Positions 1 through 63,890 of a DNA stretch of 64,000 nucleotides are shown here, one piece after another; position 1 is the first letter of the stretch; every line of letters begins with the position of its first letter. The stretch lies in the NCBI GenBank assembly GCA_963924555.1, contig OZ004586.1, forward strand, positions 3,182,501 through 3,246,500, read 5' to 3'. The notes beneath the pieces were generated by a model. It saw nothing but the letters and a program-made list of their open reading frames with translations. It searched no databases and had not been told where the DNA came from. Made by a program: the position numbers and the translations under genes. Source of the stretch: Crambe crambe (taxonomy: Eukaryota; Porifera; Demospongiae; Poecilosclerida; Crambeidae).

Positions 1-520
1 CCAATAAGTAACAACCGTATTATATTGGAGTATTTCATGACTAGTTGCTGTAGATGCTGCTGTTACGCCAGCACTGAAGTCTGTAGGTCTTGTGTCACCT
101 GTTGTTATTAGGTATCCCCTACTAGGAGGATTGGGTGGTGGTGTCCAGGAGACTCTCACTCTATTTATCCCAATCTGTCTCACCATGAGGTCAGTAGGAG
201 CTTGTTCTGCATCGATATAATTGTACTATTGGTCATTTCAGGTTAGCTACATATGAGCTGTAGTTCCCCATCAGTTTTGCTGTGCATGGATGCATGGTTC
301 ATATGTAATGGATGCATGGTTCATATGTACAAAGATCTCTATTGTTATATGCCATTTGAAAGTATATATACGTAACTAGTATACTGTAACTGTTGCTACG
401 TAGCTAATGCCCAAGATTATTTAACATACTTAGCTACGTAGATATGCACTTGCCTTGACTCCACACAGATATGAGACTGGACACAAGTCCAAGAGTCAGA
501 AGTAGCACACTATTCAACAT
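1..520 (-). CDS. Short FN3 receptor, 5' end only (gene A)
   Basis: Partial gene running off the left edge. The signal-peptide exon is 454-520 (22 codons, starting MLNSVLLLTLGLVSS). The first FN3 exon is 206 down to at least 1 and contains [20 protein letters not shown]. Intron 1 starts with GC instead of GT (AAG|GCAAGT on the minus strand), a classic GC-AG donor. The sequence nearly matches the 5' part of gene G (16744-17275), so this is probably the duplicate of that short receptor, though a phosphatase-type 3' end cannot be excluded because the rest is outside the window. The FN3 exon is open where visible. Expected product: a secreted or membrane-anchored FN3 ectodomain. Confidence 0.75.
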
Positions 521-689
521 AATACCTATTGTGAACTATCTTCATTGGTCTTTGCTTTGAGTTATGTATGTATGTACATAACTAGTTAATTAGAATAATT
601 TTTGGATATTCTGTTATGATGATCATCAAATTTTTGGGAAAATCAGATTATTCAATCGTTTACTAACTGAATAATGTAATATATACTAG

Positions 690-905
690 GGAAATGCAAT
701 GGGAGTGTGGGAATAAGTGCAAACCATTGATGGGAAAAAATATTGCTCAAAAAAGTATCAGCAAACTAGAGTAGGGATGAAGGAAAGCTAACAATCACAT
801 CACTCCACTATAATCTGATAGCTTACGGCTTGTGTATAACGAATATTACACATTCATCCCTACCATTGTTTGCTTAATTTTTTGCTCATCCCTACATTTA
901 TTTTT
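690..905. mobile_element. Foldback MITE
   Basis: Imperfect inverted repeat. The left arm holds GTAGGGATGAAGG near 771, and the right arm holds CATCCCTAC at about 857 and again near 885, with matching GCAAAC/GTTTGC and GGGAAA/TTTCCC words further out. It has no coding capacity. It lies between gene A and the decayed receptor. A near-identical copy is at 17448-17655, so the insertion predates the segmental duplication. Exact ends are not defined because no clear target duplication was found. Confidence 0.5.
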
Positions 906-949: not shown

Positions 950-3893
950 TTATATGTACTCAAGGACTATGGTTACAATCAATGTGTGCAGCTTTCTCAC
1001 AGTAACTTGCAGTGTCCTGATGACATACAGTAGTCAGCAAACGTCAGTGATGGATGGAGTACGCACGTGCCTCGATGTCCATGAGTATATCCCTAATGAA
1101 ATACATGTAGCTATGCTTACGTACTTCAACATAACATGCATGCATTGATGAATTCTCCCTGGCAATCATCAAATCCTGGAATAACTTTGAGCACTATGCA
1201 ATTATGATCATCTACAGGAAACAAGTACGTAGATAGCTTTATCATGTTTGCAAATCAATTCAACATGTTTTCTTTGTGTAATCCAATTATTTAGGATGCT
1301 CATCACAATTGTCAAGACTCTATGGACACATTGGTAGCTAGTCAATATGTTGCGTATCTGATACTGATTCCTGAATCCTGTGTCAGAGAGGGATCGAATG
1401 ATTCACTGCCACATACTCTCCAAAGTTATTTACTGGAATAGTCTCCCTTTGAACAGGATTGATTTCTTCATTATCTGGCCTCACTGTAACTTCTCAGTCT
1501 GTAATTGTAGACTCCACTGGGTCTGCGATAAAAAAAAAAGTGTTAGTTAGCTAGCTAATACTGAAATGAAGAGGTATAAGCAGGTAGTGGCTTGATGCAC
1601 AGATTGTACTGGTCTTTCAACAAACCTGTATATTCCTCCATCATAATAATTGAATCAGGTATCATCTTCACAGCTATAATGTATTATACGTATATACAGT
1701 ACATAATTATTATGATGATAATAATACTAACATCTTTTCTTCAGCCAGAATCCAACCTAACACAACCAAAAGAAGAGCAATAGCTAATAATAATAATTCC
1801 TCCAATTATTGGTCCAATTTGTGGCAGTGAAGTAGCTATAGGATTAGAGGAACACAAGACATTTTCAGGTACACAAAAGCAATTAACTCACACATCAAAT
1901 TTTAGCAAGTTACCCCACTAAAATTTATAGGGGATCTATAATGTTTGGCTTACATGCCAATGTAGTGTTGGCCTTGGAAATTTGACTACGTAGATGTTGT
2001 AGTTGCAATTGACATAGTCGTAGGATGCATCATTGATCTTACTGCTGATAATAACTTCTCCATTTTTTTCAGCTGTATAGCAGCTACTTGAAACTGGTAA
2101 TCCATGATGTTTGATTCAAATAACAACTGAGTTCACAGAGCTGGGAACAATGATGGATTCATTGACCTCTGCCTCATAATCCTCTGTCACATTAATAAAG
2201 TAGTAAATTGTGTAGTTTGTAATCGTAGTCGTTAATAATATCCCAGTGTAAGTGACTGTAGCTAATAGCATGCAGAGATTTAGAGTCAATGATGGGATAG
2301 TGAATGTAGCTAGTGCTCAAGTCTGAGTAGAGGTGTTGACTCTGATAGTATTGTTGCAATTGACTGTGTAAAAGTGACTTCATAACTGATGATGACCCCA
2401 TTAGGTTCTTGAGGTGAACTCCAATTAAGTGAGTACAATAAAAGGAGTACCAGCAAGGTTGAAAACAGGATCAGGAACTATAATGTGTACAGAAATAATC
2501 AGTGATGATCATTGTTCTTGATGGACCTTTTATGAGGGTCCCAAGAGCAGTCACGATAGTTGGTTAGCTTGTAGCTACAAGGATAGCTAAGGGCAAAATT
2601 TTTTGCCTTGACCACGCCCATTTTGCCAAACCACACCCTTTTGAATATCAAACCATGCCCACTTGATGTTTTGCATAGCTAGCAGCTGCAATTGTTGATA
2701 TGAGGAGATTAAGATTACACTCCTACACGTAGCTGGAATATAAGACACTCTCTCTTTATGGTTAATCCACTGGCATGGGTGTGTGTGATTATCACATCAT
2801 GTCCAGGGGTGTAATGGACATGTACAATAGTATTAGCAATGGAAAAAAAAATTATTTTTTTTTGGGGGGGGGGGGGGGGGGGGGGGGGAAGCTGGAAGTT
2901 TTGGGGGGGAAGTTCCCCCCCCCCCCCCCCCCCCCCCCCCCCAGTAGATAGAATCCTGGGGACGGGAGTTGGGTGATCGATTAAGCCTCCGTTGTATAAC
3001 TTTCATACACTAATGACACAGCCATCCATCTTTGTTTTACTTAGAAAATATATATAGCTAACTATGATTACATTCTTCTTTAGTCATAGCTAATAGTGAT
3101 TGCATTAGTAAAGGGTCTAGTCCCACCACCACACCAGGGATCAGAGCCCCTCCCACTTTTTGGAATTCCATTGTGTAATTATTAGTGATTGGACCATTGT
3201 GTCCAGGACACACTAACACTTCTGGAGGTCACAGAGATGTTGTGTTGGGGAGCAGTAGGTGCTGCAGCAGATCAAACCATTAAGCTACGTAACTCTGTGA
3301 TTTCAGTCATACGTACTTACCAGCCTGCTGCCTTTGGTTGTGTTTGATAATGTGCACATTTCCTTACCTCTTACAGTGCTACTCACAGGTCCTACTACTA
3401 TTGGAGTCCCATAAAGTGCAACCAGCCAATATATATAAGTATATACGTATGGGATATATGTAACTGTATACCAGGTATCTGTCCTTACATCATGACTAGA
3501 TACTCCAAATAGTGCTGTTATGCCACGTCTGAAGTCTGTAGGTCTTGTGTCACCAACTGTTATTAGGTAGGAGGATTGGATGGTTGTGTCCAGGAGACTC
3601 TCACTCTATTTATATCCCAATCTGTCTAACCATGAGGTTAGTGGGAGCTTGTTCTGCATAATTAACACACCCATCATACTAGGATTATTAGCTAACAAGC
3701 ACCCATTTATAGTGTGATGACAATATTTTGTTAGTAGTCATAAATATAATCTGTTAATAATGTAGCTATGTAGCTATTAATCAATCATCTTTCTACCTAC
3801 AAGTAGGTTAGCTATAGACCTTACTCCCTTGACTGCACACACAGATATGAGAGTGGACACAAGTCCAAGCAGAACTACCTCGCCATTCAACAT
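950..3893 (-). pseudogene. Decayed RPTP copy (pseudogene B)
   Basis: Remnants in correct gene order on the minus strand: signal exon near 3830-3893, first FN3 near 3370-3655, third FN3 near 3070-3290, fourth FN3 near 2230-2470, fifth FN3 near 1960-2200, membrane exon near 1740-1850, a truncated Ig exon near 1440-1530, and D1 exon pieces near 960-1340. The second FN3 exon is missing, frames are broken in most pieces, and everything 3' of early D1 is gone. The signal exon lost its splice donor: AAG|GG here, against AAG|GTGAG in the duplicate near 20747. Short open frames inside are chance survivals. The family assignment is certain from similarity to gene D. Confidence 0.85.
2849..2942. repeat. 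Homopolymer tracts (T, G, then C)
   Basis: A run of T, then about 25 G, a short spacer, then nearly 30 C. The corresponding site in the duplicate (19817-19868) has T, a few G and a long C run, so the tract is hypervariable. A likely site of sequencing or assembly uncertainty. Confidence 0.9.
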
Positions 3894-4384
3894 GATTATT
3901 AGCCTAGCTAGTTACTACACCATGCATGGATGCATGAACTAGTATACTACAAGTCTAGAAAGCTGTTTTGTTTCCTAATAAGTAATCAGAGATATACTAA
4001 CATATGAAAACATGAAGCAGGCTATAATTCATGTATACATTGTATGTAGAGTTAAGGGAGCTAGCTAACTATGGCTAGTAAGTCCTAGAAAGCTCTGTTT
4101 TGTTTGGGAATTGTAGACATTTGGAAAACAAAGCAAAGCTGTGTATACTGAAGTATAAATTCTTGTTTACAATAATTTTTGGTTATACATGATACGTATG
4201 TACATGGTAATTAATTTTCATGTGATTAGTTGATGAACATGACCACGAATAATATAACTTTAACTACAAAATATACAAAATCTGATTGTCAGGTTCAAGA
4301 CCTGAACAAAACATATTTTACCATATATGGTCATTTGACCTTTAAACCTTCTAGAAGGTTCTTTACACATGATTGATAGTCCTA

Positions 4385-4540
4385 CATCATGACTAGATGA
4401 TGTAAATGCTACTTGTATGCCAGTACCAAAATCTGTATTAGGTATTCCCTTTTAGGAGGATTGGGTGGTGGTGTCCAGGAGATTCTCACTCTAGCTATTT
4501 ATCCCAACTTATCTGACCATGAAGTCAGTAGGAGCTTGTT
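4385..4540 (-). pseudogene. Orphan first-FN3 exon fragment (fragment C)
   Basis: The 5' part of a first FN3 exon, with an intact acceptor at its upper end (CAG|AACAAG) and the usual PPPNPP region encoded near 4455-4470. Towards 4385 the similarity stops abruptly and runs into sequence that elsewhere lies upstream of a receptor start (compare 12830-12970). It therefore sits at a recombination or deletion breakpoint. It has no downstream exons of its own. Its former signal exon lies just upstream but is inverted (4720-4789). An equal copy is at 21310-21469. Confidence 0.75.
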
Positions 4541-4686
4541 CTGTGTGCATAACAAGAAATATAATAATATTACGTACTGTCTGCTAGCTATGACCAATTT
4601 TGAACAGTATCCCCCCCCCGAGCAATATAGTGGTGAATGTAATGTGACCAATAATGGTAAGGCATCTCTTTGATTATCCATACAAC

Positions 4687-5073: not shown

Positions 5074-7745
5074 TCACAGTGGCCATGCAATGCCAACAAG
5101 ATATAGTATAAGGTAGTACAGGCATCTAAGGTTAGCTTCTCTGCATGTTGAATGAGCTACTTCATTACATTCACCCTTTCCCAAATACTGATCACATTTT
5201 TGAGTTTTCCATGGAAATTGCTGGTACTGCATGCTACGTATGTGTCAAAGAAGGTTGGTGCTTGCAGTGTCCATTATACGTATGGTTATTCACATACTTC
5301 ATTATTATGTCCTGAGTATGTACTATAGCTCGAGGTTTATAATTAATATTGTGGAAGCTGATCTATTCATCAGTGAAAATGACTACATACGTAGCTACCT
5401 AGCTATGCCCAATGGCTAATATAATTGGTCAGTAAAAAAGTCAAAATCAAGTCAAAAAATCAGCAAACTTTTAATTATTACGTATGTGAAGCGAATTAGC
5501 TAACTGTACTTAAATGCTTTGAAAGTTGGCATATGTATCAAATGAGTCCAAGAATACAAGTGTGGCATCAAATAAGGTCTTGTAATTTGCCTGCATAATG
5601 AATGATTGCATCTCCATAAAGAGTTACTTAATAATTCATTGGTGCCTCACCAGAGTGGGCACAGCCCCTGGTTTCTGAACGCGGAGAGCTTTGACCACTT
5701 GGAAGACATCCACCACTCCCTCTGTCTTGCATCGATCAATGATGGTGGCTATGGCACAGAACATTCCACTCCTGGTCACTGTGTCACTATACATACGTAC
5801 AAACATTAGTTCACTGTAGCTATAGTCATGACACATTAGCAAGCTTTGTATTGACCATATTGGAAGTTTGTTTGTTTGTTTGAATGCTGTGGTTCTGAAA
5901 GATTACATAATGACTACTTCATAGCTAACCATGTGAGATCCCTTACCAATTGTAAAGGTCATCATTTGAAAAGTGCATGGTTTGTCAGTATCATGTGATT
6001 GGCTACCTGCAGTGTATGAATACAGGTTTGTTTCCTGTCTTCCTCTGGATTTTGGAGAGCTCCTCCACGACATCCACCACACTCTTGAGGTTGGAACACA
6101 CTCCATCTGGTCTCCAGCATGTGATGTGGAACTGAGTCACTTGGTGGGTCTTTTTGGTCTAAATGTAAACATAATACGACATAGTAGCATATTTCCAACT
6201 CTTTTGATTTCTCAGTACTTTACTCCTATAAAATACTTGGTCAATTAACTTTTTTTCGTTTAAGTATTTTCACCAAAAGTGCATCAAAATTACATAGTAG
6301 CTAATGAAATTAAATACTGATTTCATAAAGAAGGTTGGAGATTCTGTATGCTAGACAACAACCTTATTTTGTAAGATGTCAAGTGTTCTGACAGTGAACC
6401 CATTCAACTCCTCCTGATTAATCAGATAAACTTTGAACTCCCCAAATTGAGCCACTTGTCCCTCCACTGGCCAGTACTGGCAACTACTCTCCTGTAAATA
6501 ATTATTATTCATCAACCATACAGGGGGGAATATAGAATAGAATTTATTAACACTGTATGTAATAGCTATATAATTGTGTTACATGTATGTGAATACCAAT
6601 AGCAAAGTGTGCATAATGTAGCTATTCGTGTTGAGTCTCGATCATGTAATAGTTATATACTATTAGCCTCACTCATAATATGCAGAGACGTGGTATGAGG
6701 TTATACGTAATATAATGCATGAACTTACTGAGCTGATTTGATGCATGCATTATACTGATAGCAATGGGCATGGATATTATAAACATAAACTACTCTCCAC
6801 AAAGATTTCATAAAATTGCTGTAGCTACAGTTACTAGAAGCAAGCAATTTTACCAGATGGTGTTAAGCAGTTATGTATTATTGCCATGGATGTATTATTG
6901 CCATGGATACCAGTTATGTATACACATACCATTCCATTCTCAATGAGGTCGGACAACATGATGACTGCCCCACACTTCCTATCACAGATGACTTTCCACA
7001 TGTTTCTGACGGTGGAGGACATTGGGCCTTCTGCTATGATGTAAGCCTTCTTTTGCTTATAAGCCTGCATACGTACATACAATATAAGATGATCAAAAAT
7101 TGACCGTATAAGTGCTCTTAACAGATATGTAACCAAAAAAGTTTATCCAGTTCTTTTCTCACAAGGTAGCTAGCTAGATTACACATACGAGTTAAGGAAA
7201 TACTAGAAAGCAAAATTGTTGTATATGCAAAGTTTGTTAGCTATCCTGATCTATTGCATGCAGTACATTATTAATGTGATTATTAATGAACTTACATTGG
7301 CAGCAACAGCATGTATGTAGTCAGGATACTCTCCACTCATAACTACACGGTACTTATCAGCTATGTACATGTGAATATTATAACAGTGCATCCTAACTGT
7401 TTAATATTGGAATATAGAATGTTGAGTTTACATGGTAGGAAATCTTTGAGGCGATTCTTATCTGAGTGATGGAGTGCAGCAGTGCATATGACATCACTCT
7501 GTTTAGGTGATACAAGATCCAACACCTTTTTAAAAGAGAATTACATACAATTTGTAGGTAAGTAGTTGGTAAGTAGTCAAGAACTCTCTATAGACCTTGA
7601 ATTGTGTCTCAAGTTTTATTGAGTTGTCTTCCATGTTCTTCCTGTTCATCTTCATCAGTGTGGATCTGAGGTTAGTGGCATTTATCTCAGTGTCCCCACA
7701 CATCACTGACTCCAAGATAGCATCATGGATGAAAATGTACTGCTC
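5074..7745 (-). other. Gene D second phosphatase domain D2 exons, probably non-catalytic
   Basis: Eight exons follow D1 in one frame: [11 protein letters not shown] and [11 protein letters not shown] (D1-D2 link), [67 protein letters not shown], then [16 protein letters not shown] and [13 protein letters not shown]. The CX5R signature is kept (C-SDTVT-R), but the usual SAGVG loop is altered, and the WPD loop reads W-R-P-D-G-V, which moves the acid Asp by one place. D2 is therefore probably a regulatory pseudophosphatase, as in many RPTPs. The last exon gives [16 protein letters not shown] and a 51-codon tail. Confidence 0.85.
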
Positions 7746-10700
7746 CTGTATGAGCAAGAAGAAGTATAGGTAGAAATAATTGGTATAGCTATATGTTTAT
7801 CTTTTGGAATGACATTTTTGGGGAAGGATATTAGTTTTGCCATAACTCCAGATACCAATCATTTTTGTGCATAACTAATGACAGCATCCTAAAGGCCTTA
7901 CTGGAGTCTGGACCATCTTCGTGCGCTGATGCCTCAGTTTATTGATGGTCCCTGCAATGTCCACTTTGTTTTCCTTCTTGACTTGTTCAAGAACAATATC
8001 AATACATATGAATGTACCAGTTCTCCCCACTCCAGCACTGCATGTATAAATATTATGGTATAGTCAATACAGATGAATACCAGTTTCCTCCAGGCCACTC
8101 AATGATGTAGATTTACTAACAAGTTTTACCTCAATCACAAGATGTACCTCTATAATAATATCAAATTGTAGCCAAGCTAAAACATAAACACAATAATGTA
8201 CAATGCCATTTAATGAACACCCTTAAGTAGCTAAGTCTATGTAATGTTGTTAATAGGCTTCTGAAAAGTTAGAGATGTGTATTAGCATTATGCTATAACC
8301 TTAGAACCATTATGGCAACATTACACAGAAAGTGTGTTTGTGTGTCATTTTCTTGGAAAAACTACTAAGCACTACATATGTTTGTTGTCATTGTTATCAA
8401 AATTGCAGTTTCCAGGACTCAAACAGTCCATAAATCCATAGATCACGTCATTGGCCCCCAAAACATCATAGAATTTGTGCATGCATGCTTACCTGCAGTG
8501 TACTAGCATGGGGCCTCTTCTGCTCTTATGCTGTGAGAGGATCCTACGATGAAAGGAAAGCATTGAAGTGGCATAATCAGGCACTCCATGGTCAGGCCAG
8601 GACGTGAAATGAAACTGCTTCAGTGTCCAACTTGCAGAACTGCCTTCTAACTTTTATATAGATGAGAGAGAGATACTCAGATTATGTACATGCAGAATGA
8701 ATCAATATGTGTAGCTTTCTCACAGTAATTTGCAGTGTCCTGATGACATAGTCAGCAAACATCTGATATTCCACCAGGGTGACCTTGAAGGGACCATAAT
8801 TCTTGCTTCCACTGTCTGGCCAATACTGCTCACATTTAACCTTGTTACCTTCCTTGATGTTGGTTACCATGACAATAGTTGAGGGTCTCTCCTGCCAAAT
8901 CAGTCGCCAAAAGTTGACAAGCATGCAACTTTTAGGACCTTCACAATAATTATGAGCTTTTATGATTTTACTCTTAAAATTTAATATGTATGGGCAATAC
9001 CTTGTGTTACAATGAACTTTGATGGCTGTGAGTATCCCTAGTGAAGTACATAATTTATTATATTTATTTATTGTTTTTGCACATACTTCAACATAACATG
9101 CATTGATGAATCCTCCCTGACAGTTATCAAATCCTGGAATAGCATTGAGCACTATGCGATTATGATCATCTGGAATTGATAAATAATATGTACATATCAT
9201 AGCTACATATTATGATATGCAAAATTGTGTTAATATAATACTGCATGTACAACTTACACACAGTGATGTTTCCAAATCGATTCAACTTTTTGTTTTCCTT
9301 GAGCAATCCAATTGTTTTAGGATGCTCATCACCACTGTCAAGACTCTATAAACACATTTATTGATTCATGTAGCTACAATAATAACATTATGTACATACG
9401 TAGCTACGTAACTACCTCATACTGATTCCTGAATCCTGCATCAGAGTGGGAATGATTCGCTGCCACATACTCTCCATAGTCTGTCACTGGAATAGGCATC
9501 AATTTGACTGTCTCCTTTTGAACAGGATCAACTTCCTCATTATCTGGCCTCACGGTAAGTTGTACTTCTCTTTCAGCTACACCACTTGGGTTCCTGGCCT
9601 GTAACTTGTAGACTCCACTGTGTTTGAGCTTGACAGACTCTATGGAGAGAACACCACTTGATTGAATCTCCACTGCATAGTCCGACTTCAACTTGATCCC
9701 TTCATGGTACCAAGTGAGGGTAGGCTCAGGATTCCCACTCACTGCAGTCTTGAATGTTACACTTTCACCTTTAGTCAGATGTTTATTAGAAGGAAAGTCC
9801 ATGATCACAGGTCCTGCAAGTTTACAAACATGTTAAAACTGCAATGAATAGGTATAAGCAGTTTAATAATGGTAGTGCCTTAATGTACGTAGTTGATGGT
9901 TAACAAACCTGTATATTCCTCCATCATTATAATTGAATCAGGTGGTCTTTTATTATCATCTTCTCTATTCTTTTTTCTATTGTAGTTACACAGCCATAAT
10001 GATTATTATGATAATGATAATATACCTTTTATTCCACCAGAATCCAAGCAAAATATGAAACACAATAAACAAAAGAGCAATAATCCCTCCAATTATTGGT
10101 CCAATTTGTGTCAGTAAAGTAGCTACAGAATACAATAATTATGTACGTATGAGACAGAGTGGTTTTGAAACTGTTTAAATTTTCACAAGTTGCCCACAAA
10201 TGTTTGCCTTACATGCCATTGTAGTGTTGGCTTTGGATATTTGAGTAGTTATTGTAGTTGTAGGAGGCATCGTTGATCTTATCGCATCTGACCTTTCTCC
10301 TATAATAACTTCTCCATTGATTTCAGCTGTAGCAGCTACCTGAAACTGGTAATCTGTGATATTTGATTCAGTCAAATTTCTAATAAGAACTGAGTTCACA
10401 GAGCTGGGAACAATGATGGATTTATTGACCTCTGTCTCATAGTCCTCTGTCACATTAAGAAAGTAGTAGTAAACTGTGTACTTTGTAATCATAGGGTTGT
10501 TAATAGTCTCCCAGGAAACTCTGACTGAGGAATCAGACACAGATTCCACCTGTACATTCATCACCTTGGCTAATGAGACAAAAATGATATAACAATAGTG
10601 ATGATACTTGTACACTGACTCACCTGGTGCTTCAAAGGTAGTCTGATCAGGCAAATTAACAGGTTCTCCTTGACCTATTCTTGTGTAAGCAGTGACTGTA

Positions 10701-13710: not shown

Positions 13711-13811
13711 CATACCCCTACGTAAAACTAGTGGCTAGCTACACTGTTTGAGGTTTATGAAATTACAGCATATTCTGGCTCTGATGGAGTAAATTGTGGT
13801 TGTTGCTTCGA
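13711..13811 (-). pseudogene. Truncated duplicate of a short-receptor terminal exon
   Basis: Repeats the 3' flank and last part of the terminal coding exon of gene G (14445-14555), including codons for PQFTPSEPEYAVIS and the TAA stop on the minus strand. It breaks off at TCGAT into an ATATAT run. No splice acceptor precedes it, so it is not a usable alternative last exon. It lies about 740 bp downstream of the real exon. Confidence 0.7.
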
Positions 13812-14498
13812 TATATATATATAATATCAACTGAATTCTTGCACAAGTGACCATATACCTTTTAAAGCAAAAATTCAATAGCTAGGGTTCATAGTACACA
13901 TCTGTAATTAGAAGAGCTAATTCCCTAATGCATGAGTTAATAGCCATAACAATCTTAGGTTCACTCCAATCAGGTCAAATGGTGATAGCTTAAATGGCCA
14001 TTCCAAGAATTAATTTTATTCTCTTTCTCTCTCTATGATTATAGATATAGAAATCAGGGTTCACTATAGGCTCGAGTGCATATGAGCTATGATAAACACA
14101 TCCATTACATAGCTATAGTGATCAAGTTTACTTGCACATGCAAGTGACCAAAATATACCGGTAGCTACTTTTAAAAGCAAAAATCCACAATAGCTAGCTA
14201 TATAGGATCAAGGTTCATAGTACACATCTGTAATTCCCAATTGCTTGGGTTCATAGCAGTAGCTAACTATTAGCTAATGTTAACAGTGCATGCCAAGGTT
14301 TCATCATGTATGTTGCTAACCAAAGAGTAACTTTATTGAAATCATATTATCAATCAACTACGTATTGTAGCTACATAGTATTGACTATGAATAATTATTA
14401 TGTAGGCTAATCCATAACACTATAATATGCATTAGCTATATACTTAGCTATATACATACCCCTACGTAAAACTAATGGCTAGCTACACTGTTTGAGGT
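13812..14498. other. Non-coding spacer 3' of gene G
   Basis: AT-rich sequence with no gene seen. Part of it (13850-14260) is the same as the 3' flank of gene F (50030-50355 and 51725-51800), showing that genes F and G were copied together with their downstream flank. It also provides an approximate empty site for the element at 50356-51720. Confidence 0.6.
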
Positions 14499-19830: not shown

Positions 19831-19868
<38 letters not shown>

Positions 19869-20810
19869 AGTAGATAGAACCCTGGGGATGGGAGTTGGGC
19901 GATCGATTAAGCCTCCATTGTATAACTTTCATACACTAATGACACAGCCATCCATCTTTGTTTTACTTAGAAAATATATATAGCTAACTATGATTACATT
20001 CTTCTTTAGTCATAGCTAATAGTGGTTGCATTAGTAAAGGGTGTAGTCCCACCACCACACCAGGGATCAGAGCCCCTCCCACTTTTTGGAATTCCATTGT
20101 GTAATTATTAGTGATTGGACAATTGTGTCCAGGACACACTAACACTTCTGGAGGTCACAGAGATGCTGCGTTGGGGAGCAGTAGGTGCTGCAGCAGAACA
20201 AACCATTAAGCTACGTAACTCTGTGATTTCAGTGTATGGTCATATGTACGTACCAGCCTACTGCCTTTGGTTGTGTTTGATAATGTGCACATTTCCTTAC
20301 CTCTTACAGTGCTACTCACAGGTTCTACTACTATTGGAGTCCCATAAAGTGCAACCAGCCAATATATATAAGTAACTGTATACCAGGTATCTGTCCTTAC
20401 ATCATGATTAGATACTCCAAATAGTGCTGTTATGCCACGTCTGAAGTCTGTAGGTCTTGTGTCACCAACTGTTATTAGGTAGGAGGATTGGATGGTTGTG
20501 TCCAGGAGACTCTCACTCTATTTATATCCCAATCTGTCTAACCATGAGGTTAGTGGGAGCTTGTTCTGCATAATTAACACACCCATCATACTAGGATTAT
20601 TAGCTAACAAGCACCCATTTATAGTGTGATGACAATATTTTGTTAGTAGTCATAATTATAATCTGTTAATAATGTAGCTAGCTATGTAGCTATTAATCAA
20701 TCATCTTTCTACCTACAAGTAGGTTAGCTATAGACCTTACTCACCTTGACTGCACACACAGATATGAGAGTGGACACAAGTCCAAGCAGAACTACCTCGC
20801 CATTCAACAT
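17700..20810 (-). pseudogene. Decayed RPTP copy (pseudogene B')
   Basis: Duplicate of pseudogene B with the same missing pieces (no second FN3 exon, nothing 3' of early D1). It preserves more of the Ig exon (about 18220-18440), and its signal exon (start codon at 20810) still has an intact GT donor. Frames are broken in most exons, so no product is expected. The pair B/B' shows decay began before the duplication and went further in copy 1. Confidence 0.85.
19817..19868. repeat. Homopolymer tracts (T, then G/C)
   Basis: A run of T, a few G, then about 37 C. Duplicate of the tract at 2849-2942 with different lengths. Likely unstable. Confidence 0.9.
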
Positions 20811-21309: not shown

Positions 21310-21469
21310 CCTACATCATGACTAGATGATGTAAATGCTACTTGTATGCCAGTACCAAAATCTGTATTAGGTATTCCCTTTTAGGAGGATTGGGTGGTGG
21401 TGTCCAGGAGATTCTCACTCTAGCTATTTATCCCAACTTATCTGACCATGAAGTCAGTAGGAGCTTGTT
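21310..21469 (-). pseudogene. Orphan first-FN3 exon fragment, duplicate (fragment C')
   Basis: Same truncated first FN3 exon as at 4385-4540, with the same abrupt end and intact acceptor. It has no usable signal exon or downstream exons. Confidence 0.75.
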
Positions 21470-48481: not shown

Positions 48482-48712
48482 TCTGGATAGGATGCAAAGT
48501 GTAGGAATCTGGCCTAACAGTGGGTATTTATACCCTTGAAGTCTAAACCCACACATGTAGGGAATATTCTTGGGATATCCCCTAAAATATCCCCCACAAC
48601 GCAGACATTACGCATGCGCGCTTGCCATCTTATGACATCACTATATGACCTTTGACCTTTCAGGCATTTGGCGGAGTATAGTATCTATGGTTTAATATTG
48701 GATTTCCACCAT

Positions 48713-52022: not shown

Positions 52023-54857
52023 TCATGAAATTACAGCATATTCCGGCTCTGATGGAGTAAATTGTGGTTGTTGTTTCGATGGAAAATGTCCATATGCCAC
52101 ACAAGTATCCATTTCTATATCTTCAACAGTTTTTCTACAAAGAAGAATATTGATGATCATAGAAGAAATATATATGTACCTTAATTAGAGACATCATGAG
52201 TTCATTCTAAACTTCACCACTTGGTACCCCCTAATAACAAGTCGCACACATCATCAGCATAAGGTTATTCCAAACGGTGGGGTAATTCAAAATGGTTCAA
52301 ATATTTTCGAGCTCTATATAATTTTGAAAGATATACTCCACTATTATAGTTCTCCTATATTGAGCTAATATTTTTTCAGAAATATTTGAACGGTTCAGAA
52401 TTACCTGCCATTCAGAATAGCCCTGCTTTACCTTACATGCCAAGACAACAATCCCACTACAAAGAACCTCCCAATAATGGACACACTTGAGACACATGCA
52501 GCCTTTAAATAATGGTAGTGCTCACTCTGTATCTTTATCCTTATGATTACTGTGATGCTTTCCGCATCTGCAAACCAAAAGTTATCATGATCATAAGGAC
52601 ATTGAACATTAGAATTAATTACTTCTTAATAAGAAGACCCAGCAATGTTGCCAGTACAGCAATGCTAATGATCAGGAGTATTACTCCTACAATGACTCCA
52701 ACTGGTGCACTATTGGTAGTTGGTGATGTTGTTATTGCCGATGTAGAAGCTACACAAGTTAAGAACATTACATTATTACTATGAAGCAGTTCAGTAACTA
52801 ACATACGTACATTCAGTTGACACAGCCACAATCATTACAGTCATTGATCTCTGTCCAGTAAATGTTTGCCCATCAACTTCAGTAATAACCACCACATAAA
52901 ACAAGTACTCCACATTACTTGTCAGATTATCAATAACAATAGAGTTGCTGGAAGCATTGACAAAGGCATCCATATTTCCAGGTTGATTGTAGTAGTAGTA
53001 GACTCTGTAGCTTATTGTGGGCTCTGAAGTGTCAATACTTTCCCATGAAACATTAACTGAAGTATTAGACAACATCTCCACCATGACATTCATCACTACA
53101 GCTGCAAGTGGCAGCAATGATTATAATATGAGGTATGCAGGGGCAATAACTCACGTACGTAACTCAAGTGTATTCTGATCAGGCAAATTAGCAGGTTCTC
53201 CTTCACCTATTCTTGTGTAAGCAGTGACTGTAATAGCAGAGACTCTTATTTGTGGAGTCGATGATGGGATAGTGAATGTAGTGCTCAAGTCTGAGGTATT
53301 GACTCTGATAATATTGTTTCCATTGATTTTGTAAGTGACTTCATAACTGATGATGACTCCATTAGGTTCTTGAGGAGGACTCCAAGTGAGTACAATGGAA
53401 GTGAACTTAGGAGTTCCAGCAAGGTTAGACACAGGACCAGGAGCTACACATAAAAGACACTAAGATTGTTGTTACAGTTATGGCTATGATTACTTTCTTC
53501 TTCTGTCAGAATACTGGTTACATTGGAAAAGGGTCCAGTGCCATTATCATTGACTCCAGCAACTCTGAAGGTGTAGTTTGTGTAAGGAGTGAGTCCACTA
53601 GCTGTGAAGGTCCTATTCACCACCACACCAGGGATCAGAGCCCCTCCCATTTCTTGGAATTCCACTGTGTAGTTAGTGATTGGACCATTACGTTCAATGC
53701 ATTTGATTTCTGTCCAGGAAATACTGACACTTCTGGAGGTAGTAGAGGAAGTATCAATGTGTGAGGAAGCAGTAGGTGCTGCAGTAGAGCAAAACATTAG
53801 CATGATTATTGTAATTTCAGTGTATGGTCATACCAGCTGCCTTCGTAGTGAACTCTACTGTTGGTGTCAGAGTAGAATTATAACCATTTTGTATGATAAC
53901 AGTTATTGTTACACAATAAATGCTGAACTCTTGTAGGTCAGTAAACTCCACTGTGGGAATACCAGTGGTCATCTTGGATTTATAATCCTCGAATTTTTGA
54001 CACAACTGCCTTGGACCAGTTACTCGTCTCAGTTCTACTCTATACTCATCCATTGGGAGACTGAATGGAGGCTGGGTCCATGACATGGTCACAGATGTGG
54101 CAGTCAGTGATGAGAAAATGATATTCATTGGTGTATTAAAACCTATTTGAAGATCAGTGGTGGATTAGCTAATGGTTTTTGTCATAGAGGTAAATTTTAT
54201 TCAAGTACGTACGTATAATACATTTCCTCACCTCTTACAGTGATACTCACCGGTCCTATTGGCACTACAGTCCCATAAAGTGCAACCAGCCAATAATTAA
54301 CTGTAGTACCAGGTACCTGTGCTACGTCACGACTAGATGCTGTAGATGCTACTGGTATGCCAACACTGAAGTCTGTATTTGTTGTTATTAGGTATCCCCT
54401 ACTAGGAGGATTGGGTGGTGGTGTCCAGGAGATTATCACTCTATTTGTCCCAACTTGTCTGACCATGAGGTTAGTAGGAGCTTGTTCTACATGCATAACA
54501 AGCAAATTATTACATACATACTGTCTGGTAGTTACCACCAATTTTGAATGAGCAATAGTAGTGAATATATATCCCACCTAGTACATTTATTCCTATATAG
54601 GAGGGCTGGACATTAAATAATAGTTATAGTATATGGTTGCCTCGGAAATTATGGCTGTGAACGGCCTTGTCCTCGGGCGAATGTCAAGGCATCTCTTGAT
54701 TATCCATACAAATGGTATAAAATAAGTACGTAATAGCTTCATTGTAGGTAAGCAATCATTCATACATACGTACGTAGCTAGTGCACTCACCTTGACTCTG
54801 TACAGATGAGAGAGTGGACACAAGTCCTAGTGTTAGAAGTAGTACACAATTCAACAT
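52023..54857 (-). CDS. Short FN3 receptor with tyrosine-motif tail, complete (gene F)
   Basis: Nine exons, 590 residues, all phases consistent: 54857-54791, 54486-54232, 54142-53834, 53778-53494, 53443-53159, 53101-52811, 52749-52623, 52567-52526, 52134-52023. Closest to gene G: same fifth-module subtype, S/T-rich stalk (STSAITTSPTTNSAP), membrane helix VGVIVGVILLIISIAVLATL, basic LLIKKCGKHHSNHKDKD, and a tail with VAYGHF and PEYAVIS before TGA. Module 1 is three codons shorter than in the RPTPs (it lacks DTRP). Intron 1 has a normal GT donor, unlike genes A and G. The donor of the fourth FN3 exon is GTACGT. Lies between the PARP-type gene and gene I; probably shares a ligand class with the RPTPs (inference). 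Confidence 0.85.
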
Positions 54858-55137: not shown

Positions 55138-55138
55138 G

Positions 55139-56462
55139 ATTCCCTTTAGCGGGAAAATCTGATTCCTATGTTAAGAATTCTGAGCATTTCATTAGCATGA
55201 TTAAAGATTTGAACTTAGGTCCAGACGAAACACTTGTTAGCTTTGATGTTTCTTCTCTCTTTACTAATGTTCCGGTAGATGAGGCTGTGGAAGTTATACA
55301 TGATATGCTGGTGAAAGATGAGACACTGGATGAGAGGACTACGCTGTTACCTGATAGAATAGCAGAGCTTTTAGAAACATGCCTTAACTCTACTTATTTT
55401 AGTTATAAGAATGTTATTTACAAACAGGTAAGAGGTGCTGCCATGGGTTCTCCTGTTTCTGCTGTGGTAGCTAATCTGTATATGGAGTTTTTTGAGGAAC
55501 TGGCCCTGAAAACATCACCAGTGAAGCCTAGAGTTTGGAAGAGATATGTGGATGATACATTTTGTATTATGAAGAAAGGTTCTGAAATGGTGTTCCTTGA
55601 ACATTTGAATAAAGTTAGACCTTCAATTAAATTTACGGTAGAGTTAGAGAAAGATGGTAAACTTCCTTTCTTAGATTGTTTATTAGAGGTGGGCAATGAT
55701 GGTAAAATTTTATCCACAGTATATAGGAAACAGACACACACGGATAGGTATTTAAATTATAGATCACACCATCCAATACATGTAAAAAGAGGAGTTATTA
55801 AAAGCTTGTATGACAGAGCCACAAGGGTTACTACGCATGAAGAGGACTTGGTTAGGGAGCATATGCATCTTAAAAAAGTTTTTGTGAATAATGATTATCC
55901 AGAAGCCTTTCTTTCTGCAACTTTAAATCCCATAGCACCGAAACCTAGGGAAAATAGTAGTAATAGTGAAGAAAGACAGAAACAAATAGTGATTCCATAT
56001 GTTAAAGGCCTTAGTGAAGACATTAGGAGGGTTTGTAGAAAGTTTGATATTAGGGTTGTTTTTAGATCAGGGGTTAGTTTGAGATCCAAACTTTCTAAGA
56101 TTAAGGATAAGTTACCATCTGATCAAAATTCTAATGTTGTTTATAGGGTACCTTGTAGTTGTGGGAAATTTTACATTGGTGGAACGGTGAGAAGGCTGGA
56201 AGCTAGGCTGAAGGAGCATAAGGAAGCTTGCCTACGAGGAGAACAAGAGAAATCTGCTGTTGCTGATCATGCCTGGAGTAATCATCATCCTATATTATGG
56301 AAGGAAGCTTCAGTTGTAGATCAAGCTAGGACTAGGAAGGAGCTGCTTCTAAAAGAAGCGCTTCATATTGGTTTATCTTCAGAAGAGCAGCGTTTTAATA
56401 GGGATGTAGGTCTAGAACTTCAAGGTTGCTGGGTTTCTACGCTTAAAGCCTTAGGGAAATAG
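55139..56462 (+). CDS. Reverse transcriptase / GIY-YIG endonuclease (Penelope-like), 5'-truncated
   Basis: Open from the junction at about 55139 (PLAGKSDSYVKNSEHFI, upstream of the ATG at 55197) to the stop at 56460-56462. Palm motifs: A in VSFDVSSLFTNVP, B in GAAMGSPVSAVVANLYM, C in YVDDTFCI, then LPFLDCLL. The C-terminal half has the GIY-YIG domain: CSCGKFYIGGTVRRLEARLK with EHKEA and a later LKEALHI, the arrangement of endonuclease-bearing Penelope elements. The fingers region and all upstream sequence are missing, so the copy cannot move by itself. The frame is otherwise intact, suggesting a fairly recent insertion. Confidence 0.92.
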
Positions 56463-56758: not shown

Positions 56759-59700
56759 TTAAACAAAGCCATAAATTATACATATAGCTAGTATGTATAG
56801 GCTCACAGTGGCCATGCAATCCCAACAAGGTACGTATAGTGTAAGGTAGTACAGGCATCCAGGGTTGGCTTCTCTGCATGCTGAATTAGCTACGTACTTC
56901 ATTACATTCAGCCTTTCCCAAATACTGATCACTTTTTTGAGTTTCCATGGAAATTGCTGGTACTGCATGCTATGTATTAAAGAAGGTTGGTGTTTGCAGT
57001 GTCCATCATAATTATGACTATTTACGTACATACTTCATTATTATGTCCTGAGTATGTAGCTCAAGGTTTAAAATTAATATTGAAGCTGATCTATTCATCA
57101 GTGAAAATAATTACATAGCACATGCCAAATGGCTAATATTTGGTCAGTACAAAAGTCAAAAATCAAGTCAAAAATCTGCAAACTTTTAATTATTACGTAT
57201 GTGAAGCAAACTAGCTAATTGTACTTTAAATGCTTTGAAAGTTGGCATATGTATCAAATGAGTCCAAGAATACAAGTGTGGCATCAAATAAGATCTTGTA
57301 ATTTGCCTGTACATAATGAACGATTGCATCTCCATAAATAGTTAATTAATAATTCATTGATACCTCACCAGAGTAGGCACAGCTCCTGGTTTCTGAACGC
57401 GGAGAGCTTTGACCACCTGGAAGACATCCACCACTCCCTCTGTCTTGCATCGGTCAATGATGGTGGCCATGGCACAGAACATTCCACTCCTGGTCACCGT
57501 GTCACTATAATTATCATATGCATACAACATTAGTTCACTGTAGCTATAGTCATAACACATTAGCTAGCTTGCATATTGACCATATTGGAGTTTGTTTGAT
57601 GTTTGAATGATGTGATTCTGAAAAATTACATAAATGACTACTTCATAGCTATCATGTGATATCCCTTACCAATTTCTATTGTGTGGTAAAGGTCATCATT
57701 TAAAAAGTGCATGGTTTGTCTGTGTTATATGATTGGCTACCTGCAGTGGATGAATACAGGTTTGTTTCCCGTCTTCCTCTGGATTTTAGAGAGCTCCTCC
57801 ACGACATCCATCACACTCTTGAGGTTGGAACACACTCCATCTGGTCTCCAGCACATGATCTGGAACTGAGTCACTTGGTGGGTCTTTTTGGTCTAAACGT
57901 AAACACATGACATATAACAGTCCATGTCTCCAACTCTTTTTTAATTTCTCAGTATTTTATTTCTATTCTGCCTAAAATGCTTTTTTGTTATTTTAGTGTT
58001 TCACCAAATTGCATCAAAATTACATTGTAATGAAATTAAATACTGATTTCTTAAGAAAAGTTGGAGATTCTGGATATATGCTAGACAACTACCTTATTTT
58101 GTAAGATGTCAAGTGTTCTGACAGTGAACCCACTCAACTCCTCCTGATTAATCAGATAAACTTTGAACTCCCCAAATTGAGCCACTCCCTCCACTGGCCA
58201 GTACTGGCAACTACTCTCCTGTAAATAATTATTGTTCATCAACCATACAGGGAGAATATAGAATAAAATTTATTAAAATAGCTATATATTTATGTTAGAT
58301 GTATGTGAATGAATGCAAATAATTTCTTCAAAATAAAAATGTGAAGTAGCTATAGGGATGGTCACAAATTTAGCACATAACTAGCTATAGCAGCTTCATT
58401 ATGAACCAAGTACTGCAGCATCAAAGCAGTATGGCCCCAAAATCTACATAGCTGGAATATGTACTATTACTAATTGCAAATTCGCAAGAGAGTGAACTAG
58501 TGAAGTGACCCTTTACCCATCATCAAGTACGAGATACTAGCTATTCCTACTTCACTCTCATGAATGCATAGCAATGGGCATGGCTATTATGTAGCTATAA
58601 ACTACTCTCCACAAAGATTAATTTTCATAAAACAATTTTACCAGATGGTGTTACAAAGAATACAGCAGTTGCCATGGATGTATTATTGCCATGGATACCA
58701 GTTATATGTATATACACGTACCATTCCATTCTCAATGAGGTCAGACAACATGATGACTGCCCCACACTTCCTATCACAGATGACTTTCAACATGTTTCTG
58801 ATGGTGGAGGACATTGGACCCTCTGCTATAATATAAGCCTTCTTTTGCTTATAAGCCTGCATGCATACATACATAGCTACAATATAAGATGATCAAAAAT
58901 TGACTGTACAAGTGCAGATATGTAACCAGTTCTTTTCTAACTGTAAGGTAGCTAGCTACGTAGATTAAACATATAAGAAATGAATTCTAGAAAGCAAAAT
59001 TGTTTTATATGCAAGTTTGTTAGCTATCCTGATCTATTGCGTACAGTATGTTGTTATTAATGAGCTTACATTAGCAGCAACAGCATGTATGTAGTCAGGA
59101 TACTCTCCACTCAATACTACACGGTACTTATCAGCTATAGTGCATTGAATATTGTAACAATGTCCTAACTGTTTGATATTGGAATATAGAATGTTGAATT
59201 TACATGGTAGGAAATCTTTGAGGCGATTCTTATCTGAGTGATGGAGTGCAGCAGTGCATATGACATCACTCTGTTTAGGTGATACAAGATCCAATACCTG
59301 TAAATAGAATACGTACAATTTGCTGTTAAGTAGTCAAGAACTCTCTTTAGACCTTGAATTGTGTCTCAAGTTTTGTTGAGTTGTCTTCCATGTTCTTCCT
59401 GGTCATCTTCATCAGTGTGGATCTGAAGTTAGTGGCATTTATCTCAGTATCTCCACACATCACTGACTTCAAGATAGCATCATGGATGAAAATGTACTGC
59501 TCCTGCATGAGAGAAGTATAGGTAGAAATAATTGGTATGTTTATCTTTTGGAATGATATTTTGGGGAAGGATAATATTAGTTTTGCCATAACTCCAGATA
59601 CTAATCATTTTGTGCATAACTAATGACAGCATCCTAAAGGCCTTACTGGAGTCTGGACCATCTTCGTGCGCTGATGCCTCAGTTTATTGATGGTCCCTGC

Positions 59701-62700
59701 AATGTCCACTTGGTTTTCCTTCTTGACTTGTTCAAGAACAATATCAATACATATGAATGTACCAGTTCTCCCCACTCCAGCACTGTATGTAAAAATGTTA
59801 TAATATAGTGAATACAGATGAATGCCAGTTTCCTCCAGGCCACTCAATGATGTAGATTTAAACACGTTTTTTTCTCAATAACAAGATGTACCTCTATAGC
59901 CAAACTAAAACACAAACACAATGTACAATGCCATTTACTAAATGAATAACCCTTAAGTTGCTAAGTCTATGTAATGTTGTTAATAGGCTTCTGAAAAGTT
60001 AGAGATGTGTATTATGCTACTGAAAACCATTATGGGAACATTACACAGAAAAAAATCTATAGTTTGTTTGTGTGTCATTTTCTTAGAAAAACTACTAAGC
60101 ACTACATATGTTTGTTGTCATTGTTATCGAAATTGCAGTTTCCAGGACTCAAACAGTCCATAAATCCATAGAGCACGTCATTGGCTCCCAAAACATCATA
60201 GAATTTGTGCATGCATGCTTACCTGCAGTGTACTAGCATGGGGCCTCTTCTGCTCTTGTGCTGTGAGAGGATCCTACGATGAAAGGAAAGCATAGAAGTG
60301 GCATATTCAGGCACACAATGGTCAGGCCAGGATGTGAAGTGAAACTGCTTCAGTCTCCAACTTGCAGAACTTCCTTCTAACTTTTATATAGATGAGAGAG
60401 ATATTATACTCAAGACTATGTACATGGCTACAGAATGAATCAATGTGTATAGCTTTTCTCACAGTAACTTGCAGTGTCCTGATGACATAGTCAGCAAACA
60501 TCTGGTATTCTACCAGGGTGACCTTGAAGGGACCATAATTCTTGCTTCCACTGTCTGGCCAATACTGCTCACATTTAACCTTGTTACCTTCCTTGATGTT
60601 GGTTAGCATTACGATAATTGGGGGTCTCTCCTGCCAAATCAGTCGCCAAAAGTCGACAAGCATGTAACTCTTAGGACCTTCACAATGTGAACTTTCATTA
60701 TTTCATTTTAAATACTTAATAATACCTTGTGCTGCAATGAACTTTGATGGCTGTGAGTATCCCTAGTGAAGTAGCTACATATGATTCAATTATTCAATTA
60801 TTATTATTAATTTTTGCTTACTTCAATATAACATGCATTGATGAATTCTCCCTGACAATCATCAAAGCCTGGAATAGCATTGAGCACTATGCGATTATGA
60901 TCATCTGGAATTGACAAATGATATGTACATATCATAGCTACATATTATGATATGCAAAATTGTGTTAATAGCTATAATGCTTACAACTTACACACAGTGA
61001 TGTTTGCAAATCGATTCAACTTTTTGTTTTCCTTGAACAATCCAATTGCTTTAGGATGCTCATCACCACTGTCAAGACTCTATAAACACATTATTCGATT
61101 CAAGTTCAATAGTAACATTATGTATGTACGTAGCTACCTCAAACTGATTCCTGAATCCTGTGTCAGAGTGGGAATGATTCACTGCCACATACTCTCCAAA
61201 GTTTGTCACTGGAATAGGCACCAATTTGACTGTCTCCTTTTGAACAAGATCAACTTCCTCATTATCTGGCGTCACGGTAAGTTTTACTTCTCTTTCAGCT
61301 GTACCACTTGGGTTCCTGGCCTGTAACTTGTAGACTCCACTGTGTTTGAGCTCAGCAGACACTATGGAGAGAACACCACTTGGTCGAATTTCCACTGCAT
61401 AGTCAGACTTCAGCTCAATCCCTTCATGGTACCAGGTAAGGGTAGGCTCAGGATTCCCACTCACTGCAGTCTTGAATGTTACACTTTCACCTTCAGTCAG
61501 ATGCTTATTAGAAGGAAAATCCATGATCACGGGTCCTGCAATTTTACAAACATGTTAAGACTGCAATGAAGAGGTATAAGCAGTTTAAATAATGGTAAAG
61601 GCTCGATGTAGTTGATGGTTAAGCACCATGTATTGTACTGGTCTTTTAACAAACCTGTATATTCCTCCATCATTATAATCGAATCAGGTGGTCTTTTATT
61701 ATCATCTTCTCTATTTTTTTTTCAATTGTAGTTACACAATTATGTATAATTATTATGACAATAATAATAATATACCTTTTGTTCAGCCAGAATCCAAGCA
61801 AAATACGAAGCACAATAACCACAAGAAGAGCAATACCTCCAATTATTGCTCCAATAATTACTCCAATTTGTGTCAGAGTAGCTACAGGATTATAGTGGAA
61901 CACAATAAGTATGTATGGTTCTGAAACTGTTTAAATTTGCCCCACAAATGTTTGGCTTACATGCCATTGTAGATATAGTCGTTGTAGTTGCAATCAACAT
62001 AGTGGTAGGAGGCATCGTTGATCTTAACGCATCTGACCTTTTTCCCATGATAACTTCTCCATTGATTTCAGCTGTAGCAGCTACCTGAAACTGGTAATCT
62101 GTGATGTTTGATTCAGTCAAATTTCCAATAACAACTGAGTTCACAGAGCTGGGAACAATGATGGATTCATTGACCTCTGCCTCATGGTCCTCTGTCACAT
62201 TAAGAAAGTAGTAAACTGTGTAATTTGTAATCATAGGGTTGTTGATAATCTCCCAGGAAACTCTGACTGAGGAATCAGACACAGACTCCACCTGTACATT
62301 CATCACCTTGGCTAATGAGAAAAAAATGACATAACAATAGTGATGATACTTGTACACTGACTCACCTGGTGCTTCAAAGGTAGTCTGAGCAGGCAAATTA
62401 ACAGGTTCTCCTGGACCTATTCTTGTGTAAGCAGTGACTGTAATACCAGAGACTCTTGTTTGTGGAATCAATGATGGGATAGTGAATGTAGTACTCAAGT
62501 CTGAGGTGTTGACTCTGACAGTATTGTTGCCATTGACTGTGTAAGTGACTTCATAACTGATGATGACTCCATTAGGTTCTTGAGGTGGACTCCAAGTGAG
62601 TAAAATAGAAGTGAACTTAGGAGTACCAGCAAGGTTAGACACAGGATCAGGAACTATACAGAGATTATCAGTAATGATCATTGTTTACATATGAGGCTGG

Positions 62701-63890
62701 TCCCAAGAGCAGTCACATAACTCATGCATGAATTAATGTGGGATAGCTAGTTAGCTTGGATAGCTAGTACTGGTAGAGTGGATAGAAATTGGGTGATCAA
62801 TAAAGCCTCTGTTTGTACGTACGTATAACTTTCAAATAATACTAGCTATACAGGTACAGCCAGCCATCTTGTTTTTTATACACCTCTGGCTTTTATAGCT
62901 AGATATTCTTTTTTATGATTACCTTCTTCTGACTGAATACTGGTTACATTAGTAAAGGGTCCAGTGCCATTGTCATTGACTCCAGCAACTCTGAAGGTGT
63001 AGTTTGTGTAAGGAGTGAGTCCACTAGCTGTGAAGGTCCTATTCACTACCACACCAGGGATCAGAGCCCCTCCCACTTCTTGAAATTCCACTGTGTAGTT
63101 AGTGATTGGACCATTGCGTTCAATGCATCTGATTTGTGTCCAGGATATATTGATACTTCTTGAGGTGACAGAGAGAATCATTATGCTGCATGGGGGAGCA
63201 GAAGGTGCTGCAAAAAAAAACAACATTAGCTTAATATTAGCGATGTAATTTCAGTGTATGATCATACCAGCTGTCTTTGTAGTGAACTCTACAGTTGGTG
63301 TCAGAGTAGCAGTGAATCCACTTGGTAATATAACAGTAATGGTTACACTGTAAATACTGAATTCATGTAGATTAGTAAACTCCAATGTGGAAATACCAGT
63401 GGTCATCTTGGACATATTATCCTCAACCATTCTACACAACTGCTTTGGTCCAGTTACTCGTCTCAGTTCTACTCTATACTCATCCATTGGGAGACTGAAT
63501 TGAGGCTGGGTCCATGATATGGTCACAGATGTGGAAGTCAGTGATGAAAAAGTGACATTTAATGGTGTATTAAAATCTATTTGAAGTTTAACTGTGATTA
63601 ATTATACAATTTGTACATTTCCTCACCTCTTACAGTGGCACTCACAGGTCCTACTACCATTGGAGTCCCATAAAGTGCAACCAGCCAATAAGTAACTCTA
63701 CCAGGTGCCTGTCCTACATCACGACTAGATACTGTAGATGTTGCTGTTATGCCAGCACTGAAGTCTGTAGGTCTTGTGTCATCTGTTGTAATTAGGTATC
63801 CCCTACTAGGAGGGGGTGTTGGTGGTGTCCAGGAGACACTCACTATATTCATCCCAATCTGTCTAACCATGAAGTTAGTAGGAGCTTGTT
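56759..63890 (-). CDS. Receptor-type protein tyrosine phosphatase, 5' end outside window (gene I)
   Basis: Same plan as genes D and E, missing only the signal exon. Exons: 63890-63627, 63576-63268, 63207-62923, 62653-62366, 62311-61961, 61881-61776, 61710-61655, 61535-61138, 61079-60992, 60904-60822, 60762-60726, 60677-60463, 60380-60223, 59782-59647, 59502-59353, 59297-59204, 59134-59070, 58856-58722, 58218-58093, 57892-57741, 57504-57369, 56962-56759. All phases agree. Oddities: the D1 WPD loop reads WPDHCVP (Gly to Cys); the juxtamembrane exon lost its usual acceptor and uses one 12 bases on, dropping KKNR; the C-terminus is 68 codons, ending ICIIYGFV. The D1 loop [10 protein letters not shown] is intact. 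The Ig module again lacks cysteines. Confidence 0.88.
58341..58444. repeat. Fragment shared with the composite element
   Basis: Contains AAAATGTGAAGTAG, AGGGATG and CAGCTTCATTATGAACCAAG, matching 24177-24252 inside the composite element, without either tip. A decayed remnant in an intron of gene I. Confidence 0.5.

Follow-up and report, generated by a model that had tools for sequence, protein, structure and literature searches.

A candidate paired-receptor gene complex in the sponge Crambe crambe: receptor tyrosine phosphatases and tyrosine-tailed receptors built on a common pool of outer domains

Receptor phosphatases and phosphatase-less receptors that stand side by side in a sponge genome, with outer parts of one type and different cytoplasmic ends, raise the question of whether they represent paired receptors. 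The genes concerned lie in a stretch of 64,000 nucleotides (nt) from Crambe crambe (the window; C9:3182501-3246500 of a 143.1 Mb assembly, C-prefixed coordinates referring to contigs). Paired receptors are described as having very similar ligand-binding regions and opposite signalling (PMC3533184, PMC5112662). The locus is read here, with confidence slightly better than even, as a paired-receptor gene complex, in which receptor protein tyrosine phosphatases (RPTPs, or R) and short receptors with a tyrosine-bearing tail (S) are built on a common pool of outer domains. Both types have the outer part in common and differ in the cytoplasmic end, they carry separate signal exons, the first fibronectin type III exon (FN3-1) evolves fast, and the ratio of non-synonymous to synonymous divergence (dN/dS) is low in the two phosphatase domains (D1 and D2) and in intact tails. 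Opposed signalling, common ligands and a role in allorecognition may be added to this picture as its conditional part.

The contents of the window were established with exon anchors from RPTP3 and short receptor 2 (short2), run by tblastn on the window, and with exon families defined as paralogous minus-strand open frames:

57235-63891, minus strand: RPTP3, with five FN3 exons, a transmembrane (TM) segment, a juxtamembrane part, a predicted cytoplasmic immunoglobulin (Ig) domain, D1 and D2 (tblastn anchors and Pfam)
61138-61536, 27788-28186 and 9416-9814, minus strand: I-set Ig exons, predicted to be cytoplasmic and without cysteine, the first of RPTP3 and the others within the spans of RPTP2 and RPTP1
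52023-54857, minus strand: short2, with signal exon, five FN3 exons, TM and a class A two-tyrosine tail (anchors 54487-52026)
52023-52134, minus strand: tail exon of short2, ending EYAVIS*
33460-36384, minus strand: gene H, with RPTP-type signal and FN3 exons and a class B tail, frame-broken (anchors 35944-33532)
33460-33606, minus strand: class B tail exon of the broken gene H
22444-32032, minus strand: RPTP2, with the plan of RPTP3 (anchors 30745-22444, signal exon 32032-31970)
about 17866-21470, minus strand: decayed phosphatase-receptor copy (tblastn anchors)
14499-17275, minus strand: short receptor 1 (short1), with signal exon, five FN3 exons, TM and a class A tail (anchors 16950-14502)
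14499-14610, minus strand: tail exon of short1, ending EYAVIS*
5519-12451, minus strand: RPTP1, with the plan of RPTP3 (anchors 11949-5519, signal exon 12451-12389)
about 1132-4541, minus strand: decayed phosphatase-receptor copy (tblastn anchors)
1-520, minus strand: 5' end of gene A (signal exon 520-455, FN3-1 from 207), the rest of which runs to at least C9:3178403

In the order of transcription, RPTP3 is followed by short2, H, RPTP2, a decayed copy, short1, RPTP1, the second decayed copy and the start of gene A, so that the window holds three receptor phosphatases, two intact phosphatase-less receptors, one broken gene and two decayed phosphatase copies on the five-FN3 plan. The initial annotation had described just such a tandem array on one strand, which the tblastn anchors and Pfam bear out, and its gene starts agree with a single family of signal-peptide exons at 54857 (short2), 36384 (H), 32032 (RPTP2), 17275 (short1), 12451 (RPTP1) and 520 (gene A); that of RPTP3 must lie past base 64000. 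Anchors of whole FN3 exons find matches at 1e-36 or below in the other intact window genes, including short2 against RPTP3 anchors, which is far from chance. In spliced short1, Pfam recognises five stretches of fn3, while the joined exons of RPTP3 yield four of fn3, an I-set and two of Y_phosphatase; FN3-1 on its own stays under the fn3 cut-off (20.3 vs 25 bits), and its naming is therefore partly positional. The FN3 exons of short1 and short2 join in phase 1, whereas two other joins were read by eye, namely that between the juxtamembrane and Ig exons of RPTP2 and that behind the TM of short2, where the automatic splice choice was doubtful. The two decayed copies share 96-97% DNA identity in long blocks. 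In short1, the signal exon (17209-17275, minus strand) seems to be followed by an intron that begins with GC, the border reading AG|GCAAGT.

The closest case of one ectodomain with two ends is formed by gene A and short1. To read the 3' half of gene A, 4.1 kb to the left of the window were taken in; FN3-1 to FN3-5, TM, Ig and D1 follow there in sequence, and gene A is therefore a fourth phosphatase receptor. It had previously been listed apart from the RPTPs, correctly as a member of the array, but as a phosphatase receptor with its 3' half outside the window it belongs among them. Gene A and short1 are 95.1% identical over 2604 bp spanning the 5' flank, the signal exon and FN3-1 to FN3-4, and flank pieces farther upstream are 93-97% identical, whereas past the FN3-4/FN3-5 border the matches drop to 33-61 per 100 aligned columns. 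They are a real phosphatase/tail pair, differing in FN3-5 and in the membrane and cytoplasmic parts.

The exon trees comprise 19 to 28 rows, and most forks are weak in the two trees shown, those of FN3-1 and FN3-3. The fewest R/S label changes are 6, 7 and 7 for FN3-1, FN3-2 and FN3-3 (shuffled means 7.3, 6.4 and 8.1), and these three exons are no better sorted by R and S than shuffled labels. The FN3-4 tree, in contrast, is sorted by receptor type, with 4 changes against a shuffled mean of 8.8 and none of 300 shuffles as low. Eight adjacent S/R pairs (six with FN3-1) are closer than random pairing in FN3-1 (P 0.024), FN3-2 (P 0.0016) and FN3-3 (P 0.0014), but not in FN3-4 or the short-type FN3-5 (FN3-5s); the five left-block pairs alone give P 0.03, 0.02 and 0.03 for FN3-1 to FN3-3, 0.09 for FN3-4 and 0.27 for FN3-5s. 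The pattern is nevertheless mosaic, since in single pairs another R is often closer than the adjacent one (in FN3-2, S1/R1 has rank 9 of 10). Near-alike ectodomains with differing tails, seen in gene A and short1 and in the exon trees, thus occur together with clustered genes, and clustering is typical of paired-receptor genes.

The array reported for the window is real, yet it is far larger than the window. The surrounding complex extends over about 1.2 Mb of C9, with tail rows from 2.338 to 3.525 Mb. It contains 44 rows of the D1 active-site exon, 40 of them of full length and without stops (one reaching residue 46 of 47), a tally of a single exon and not of whole intact genes, and 65 tail exon rows as typed (9 class A and 56 class B), including fragments, second copies and rows with stops. 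At least 116 FN3-4 rows were found on C9 (150 of 549 candidates scored), for which the next element downstream is D1 in 37, a tail in 52 and neither within the limits in 27. Between 2.338 and 2.456 Mb there are 21 tail rows and no full D1 exon, while elsewhere R and S are interleaved. Two exon runs were observed in passing: ten consecutive FN3-4 exons at about 450 bp spacing (C9:3075241-3079566), possibly an exon array, and four tandem FN3-1 exons ahead of one short-type gene (L019:4812-6554).

A second complex is found on C13, where 12 D1 exons of 80-87% identity lie within 3.59-3.86 Mb, together with 12 Ig exons at 43-49% identity. C13 also holds 28 of 53 tail rows, of which 21 reach E 0.001 or better and all but two fall within 4.06-4.52 Mb. 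The two short genes read there (L041 and L042) have five FN3 exons each and the tail core seen on C9, and neither gave a sure signal exon. The TM of L041, read by eye, resembles the B type of C9 (see below), although the homology is modest because the B-type TM rows on C13 (18 of 77) reach only E 6e-4 or weaker. The C13 complex holds both R and S, with a tail core common to the two contigs. The paired receptors proposed in the initial annotation accordingly stand as regards the shared ectodomain and the different ends, through the 95% pair, the trees, the B-type TM, the tail dN/dS and C13, and stay conditional as regards opposed signalling and ligands.

The S tail comprises about 35 residues with two tyrosines, the first mostly in the motif CxAYGx[V/F/I] (departures are AYEHV, AYDYV and AYGQQ). 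Intact tails end in YDNI or YDSI in class B, in EYAVIS or EYDIIS in class A, and in YDNA on C13; the tails of short1 and short2 belong to class A and that of H to class B, with H and L033 frame-broken. The immunoreceptor tyrosine-based inhibitory motif (ITIM) has the consensus (I/V/L/S)xYxx(L/V/I), and its activating counterpart (ITAM) reads YxxL/I, 6-12 residues, YxxL/I. Among 17 tails checked, the ITIM consensus is present in four (L034, L036, L037 and one left-block tail) and in neither window tail, and an identity as ITAM receptors was rejected, the consensus being found in none of the 17. Tails chosen for being intact show a dN/dS of 0.33 in both classes (class A, n=4, 0.026/0.079; class B, n=6, 0.073/0.218), and two C13 tails have a single difference, which is synonymous. 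Class B short genes own a special TM exon: on C9, the 51 B-type TM exons are followed by a tail in 47 cases, by an Ig exon first in none and by neither in four, and none of 42 Ig exons has a B-type TM upstream. Class A short genes, in contrast, have no TM of their own; in TM and FN3-5s they are similar to RPTPs of the left block. Polyadenylation signs behind the tails are mixed and prove nothing. A second, partial class A tail exon lies downstream of short1 (13758-13826, minus strand).

The R end corresponds to that of classical RPTPs: an adhesion-type ectodomain, one TM and a D1 with HCX5R and WPD, as recognised by Pfam and motif reading. In the window and left block together, WPD is present in 13 of 14 D1d exons and AGVGRTG in 11 of 13 D1e exons, the exceptions are a partial exon of each kind and a single AGIGRTG. 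The TM and D1 are separated by an I-set domain (Pfam 4.6e-16), which should sit inside the cell, because a single TM precedes it and the phosphatase comes after. No cysteine is present in 12 aligned Ig copies, a loss of the disulfide pair that fits an intracellular Ig; titin is the best solved relative, and exons related to this domain also occur in the C13 complex. Among the listed titles and abstract openings of open-licence papers (preprints not included, and for some queries a part of the papers found), neither a receptor phosphatase with a cytoplasmic Ig nor this complex appeared.

Selection differs along the protein. By counting, dN/dS of FN3-1 is 1.42 (codon bootstrap 1.03-1.95; 20 stop-free sequences selected by coverage and score), with 1.19 among R, 1.54 among S and 1.33 between R and S, against 0.46-0.70 for FN3-2 to FN3-5, 0.26 for Ig and 0.05-0.21 for the phosphatase exons. 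Hot sites of the FN3-1 exon include residues 25-26, 49-53, 60, 62, 75 and 85, which probably lie in loops.

A mechanism can be proposed for such a complex, in which tandem duplication and exchange would maintain a single pool of FN3-1 to FN3-3 as outer recognition domains. Two 3' modules are combined with this pool. The R module consists of TM, the predicted cytoplasmic Ig, D1 and D2, and in most copies seen its D1 bears the usual phosphatase signature; the S module consists of TM and the tail of about 35 residues, typically with CxAYGx[V/F] and a C-terminal YDNI, YDSI, YDNA, YDII or YAVI. Both forms may meet the same or overlapping ligands, S being phosphorylated and docking SH2 proteins, while R would strip the phosphate from S or its pathway through the action of D1 on the tails. 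The response would then be set by the R/S ratio for each ectodomain, through copy number and expression, with allotypes, symbionts and pathogens as possible ligands.

Several observations weigh against the paired-receptor reading. Neighbour likeness can arise from recent duplication alone, and R/S alternation, for which omitting some tail rows gave P 0.007 and 0.11 (26 and 22 unlike neighbours out of 38 and 35), is not significant with every same-strand row (P 0.09 and 0.16; 28 and 22 out of 45 and 36), so that strict alternation is not claimed. Damage is also widespread. Among the 10 left-block tail places (11 rows), one has an exact YDNI and two have tyrosine-bearing variants, the rest being relics or broken; the S partners of the closely matched pairs S2/R2 and S5/R5 have damaged tail ends; one class B short gene of L043 has an intact tail but seems to be shifted in frame within FN3-2 and FN3-4; and stops are found in FN3-2 of the C13 gene L042 and in R4. 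In gene A itself, the D1d exon has YC before the active-site loop, where RPTP1-3 have HC, which makes its activity uncertain. Finally, a likelihood grid places omega of FN3-1 at about 1.2 with 1 included (lnL -2103.8 vs -2104.6; kappa at the grid edge), with a peak at 0.7 for FN3-2 to FN3-4; since omega is not clearly above 1, positive selection on FN3-1 is suggested and not proven.

The main rival assigns the short receptors to uptake or a decoy role, in which the tail tyrosines would drive endocytosis rather than phosphotyrosine signalling. YxxPhi is a sorting motif, and its presence in all 17 tails checked, with two copies in 13, likewise counts against a signalling tail; the low tail dN/dS suits uptake and signalling alike. 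However, C13 tails end in YDNA, where the final tyrosine has no bulky residue at +3, the C13 gene L041 seems to carry an extra tyrosine exon (HIYEAA, read by eye), and YxN, a Grb2-type docking motif, is found in 8 of the 17 tails, which leaves uptake or decoy function a possible but doubtful explanation. Rather improbable is the view of the short genes as, for the most part, by-products of birth and death, that is, RPTPs that lost their 3' half and share no joint function with the others. Weak phosphatase relics that follow class B short genes (D2a at L038, E 5e-4; D2g at L040, E 7e-4), a D1e fragment at C9:2396246 and the broken majority of left-block tails would fit such an origin, but not the constraint on the tails chosen as intact, the special TM with a tail next in 47 of 51, the recurrence of the tail core on C13 or the short-only run of 21 tail rows.

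It would also be conceivable that the tails are alternative last exons, the upstream short units splicing by read-through to phosphatase exons that belong to the gene behind them, as left-block S genes often lie directly upstream of an R on the same strand. The window genes possess their own signal exon and FN3 set, however, and no Ig or phosphatase exon is found at E 0.001 between the window tail exons and the signal exon of the following gene, making this explanation very improbable. For the same reasons, the idea of the short forms as mere splice products of RPTPs, which the initial annotation had regarded as contrary to its proposal, is disfavoured. The reading retained is that of a paired-receptor gene complex. 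The wider proposal that the two complexes form a paired-receptor system that supplies the cell-surface receptors of allorecognition in sponges, its inhibitory arm being the phosphatase, is tentative and must be regarded as unlikely at present; we know of no other system in which a phosphatase itself is the inhibitory arm of paired receptors.

Other elements were noticed beside the receptor genes. A 440-residue frame at 55140-56462 (plus strand) matches a reverse transcriptase (Pfam RVT_1), and its C-terminal part presumably resembles the GIY-YIG nuclease of Penelope-like elements. A 605-residue open frame at 46793-48607 (minus strand) matches nothing in Pfam at E 0.01; some three relatives, at 59-60%, lie elsewhere in the genome. 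In the mitochondrial COI gene, TGA reads as tryptophan under code 4, the single code applied, with ATA and AGR use listed alongside; this agrees with a non-bilaterian animal such as a sponge, and the COI is similar to that of sponges. On C12, two more clusters of Y_phosphatase exons, with less similar D1, lie at 70-384 kb and 2.5-3.2 Mb.

Among known receptors, the R3-type receptor tyrosine phosphatases, of which one sponge sequence has been described, resemble those studied here in their FN3 ectodomain, one TM and a phosphatase domain (PMC5336234). Unlike them, the Crambe receptors have D1 and D2, an Ig between TM and D1 and a massive tandem expansion, and assignment to the R3 subtype was rejected because the R3 definition, an FN3-only ectodomain with a single phosphatase domain, stands against two phosphatase domains here (PMC5336234). 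Tyrosine-motif receptor families are also known from other invertebrates: the allorecognition candidates of Hydractinia (Alr) and Botryllus (fuhc) carry ITIM/ITAM-type motifs, paired receptors are mentioned for Botryllus, and CD45-like phosphatases are expressed there (PMC12065747). The Botryllus fuhc family, however, is assigned to the Ig superfamily, and the part of that paper available names no phosphatase twin with the same ectodomain (PMC12065747). The same source cites sponge aggregation factor genes for sponge allorecognition and calls invertebrate allorecognition mechanisms "a complete mystery" (PMC12065747).

Against this background, the complex offers a concrete gene set in which a fast-evolving outer domain is common to all and the signalling end is of two kinds, an enzyme being one. 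It yields testable receptor candidates, including the natural pair of gene A and short1, and its receptor phosphatases are of unusual plan, as their Ig domain is predicted to lie within the cell. Sponge aggregation factors, which are themselves allorecognition candidates, are secreted and of other domain make-up. Paired receptors are usually treated as a vertebrate immune design, with Ig or lectin ectodomains, clustering and exchange. Like the receptors described here, the vertebrate ones (KIR, LILR, CEACAM1/3, CD300A/C) have near-identical outer domains and different cytoplasmic ends. Unlike them, the sponge receptors have an FN3 ectodomain and one side, in place of an ITIM, is itself the phosphatase; opposed signalling, which defines the vertebrate pairs, is here suggested by the phosphatase set against the tyrosine tail. 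A paired layout known mainly from vertebrate immune receptors would thus be seen in receptor phosphatases and their tyrosine-tailed twins.

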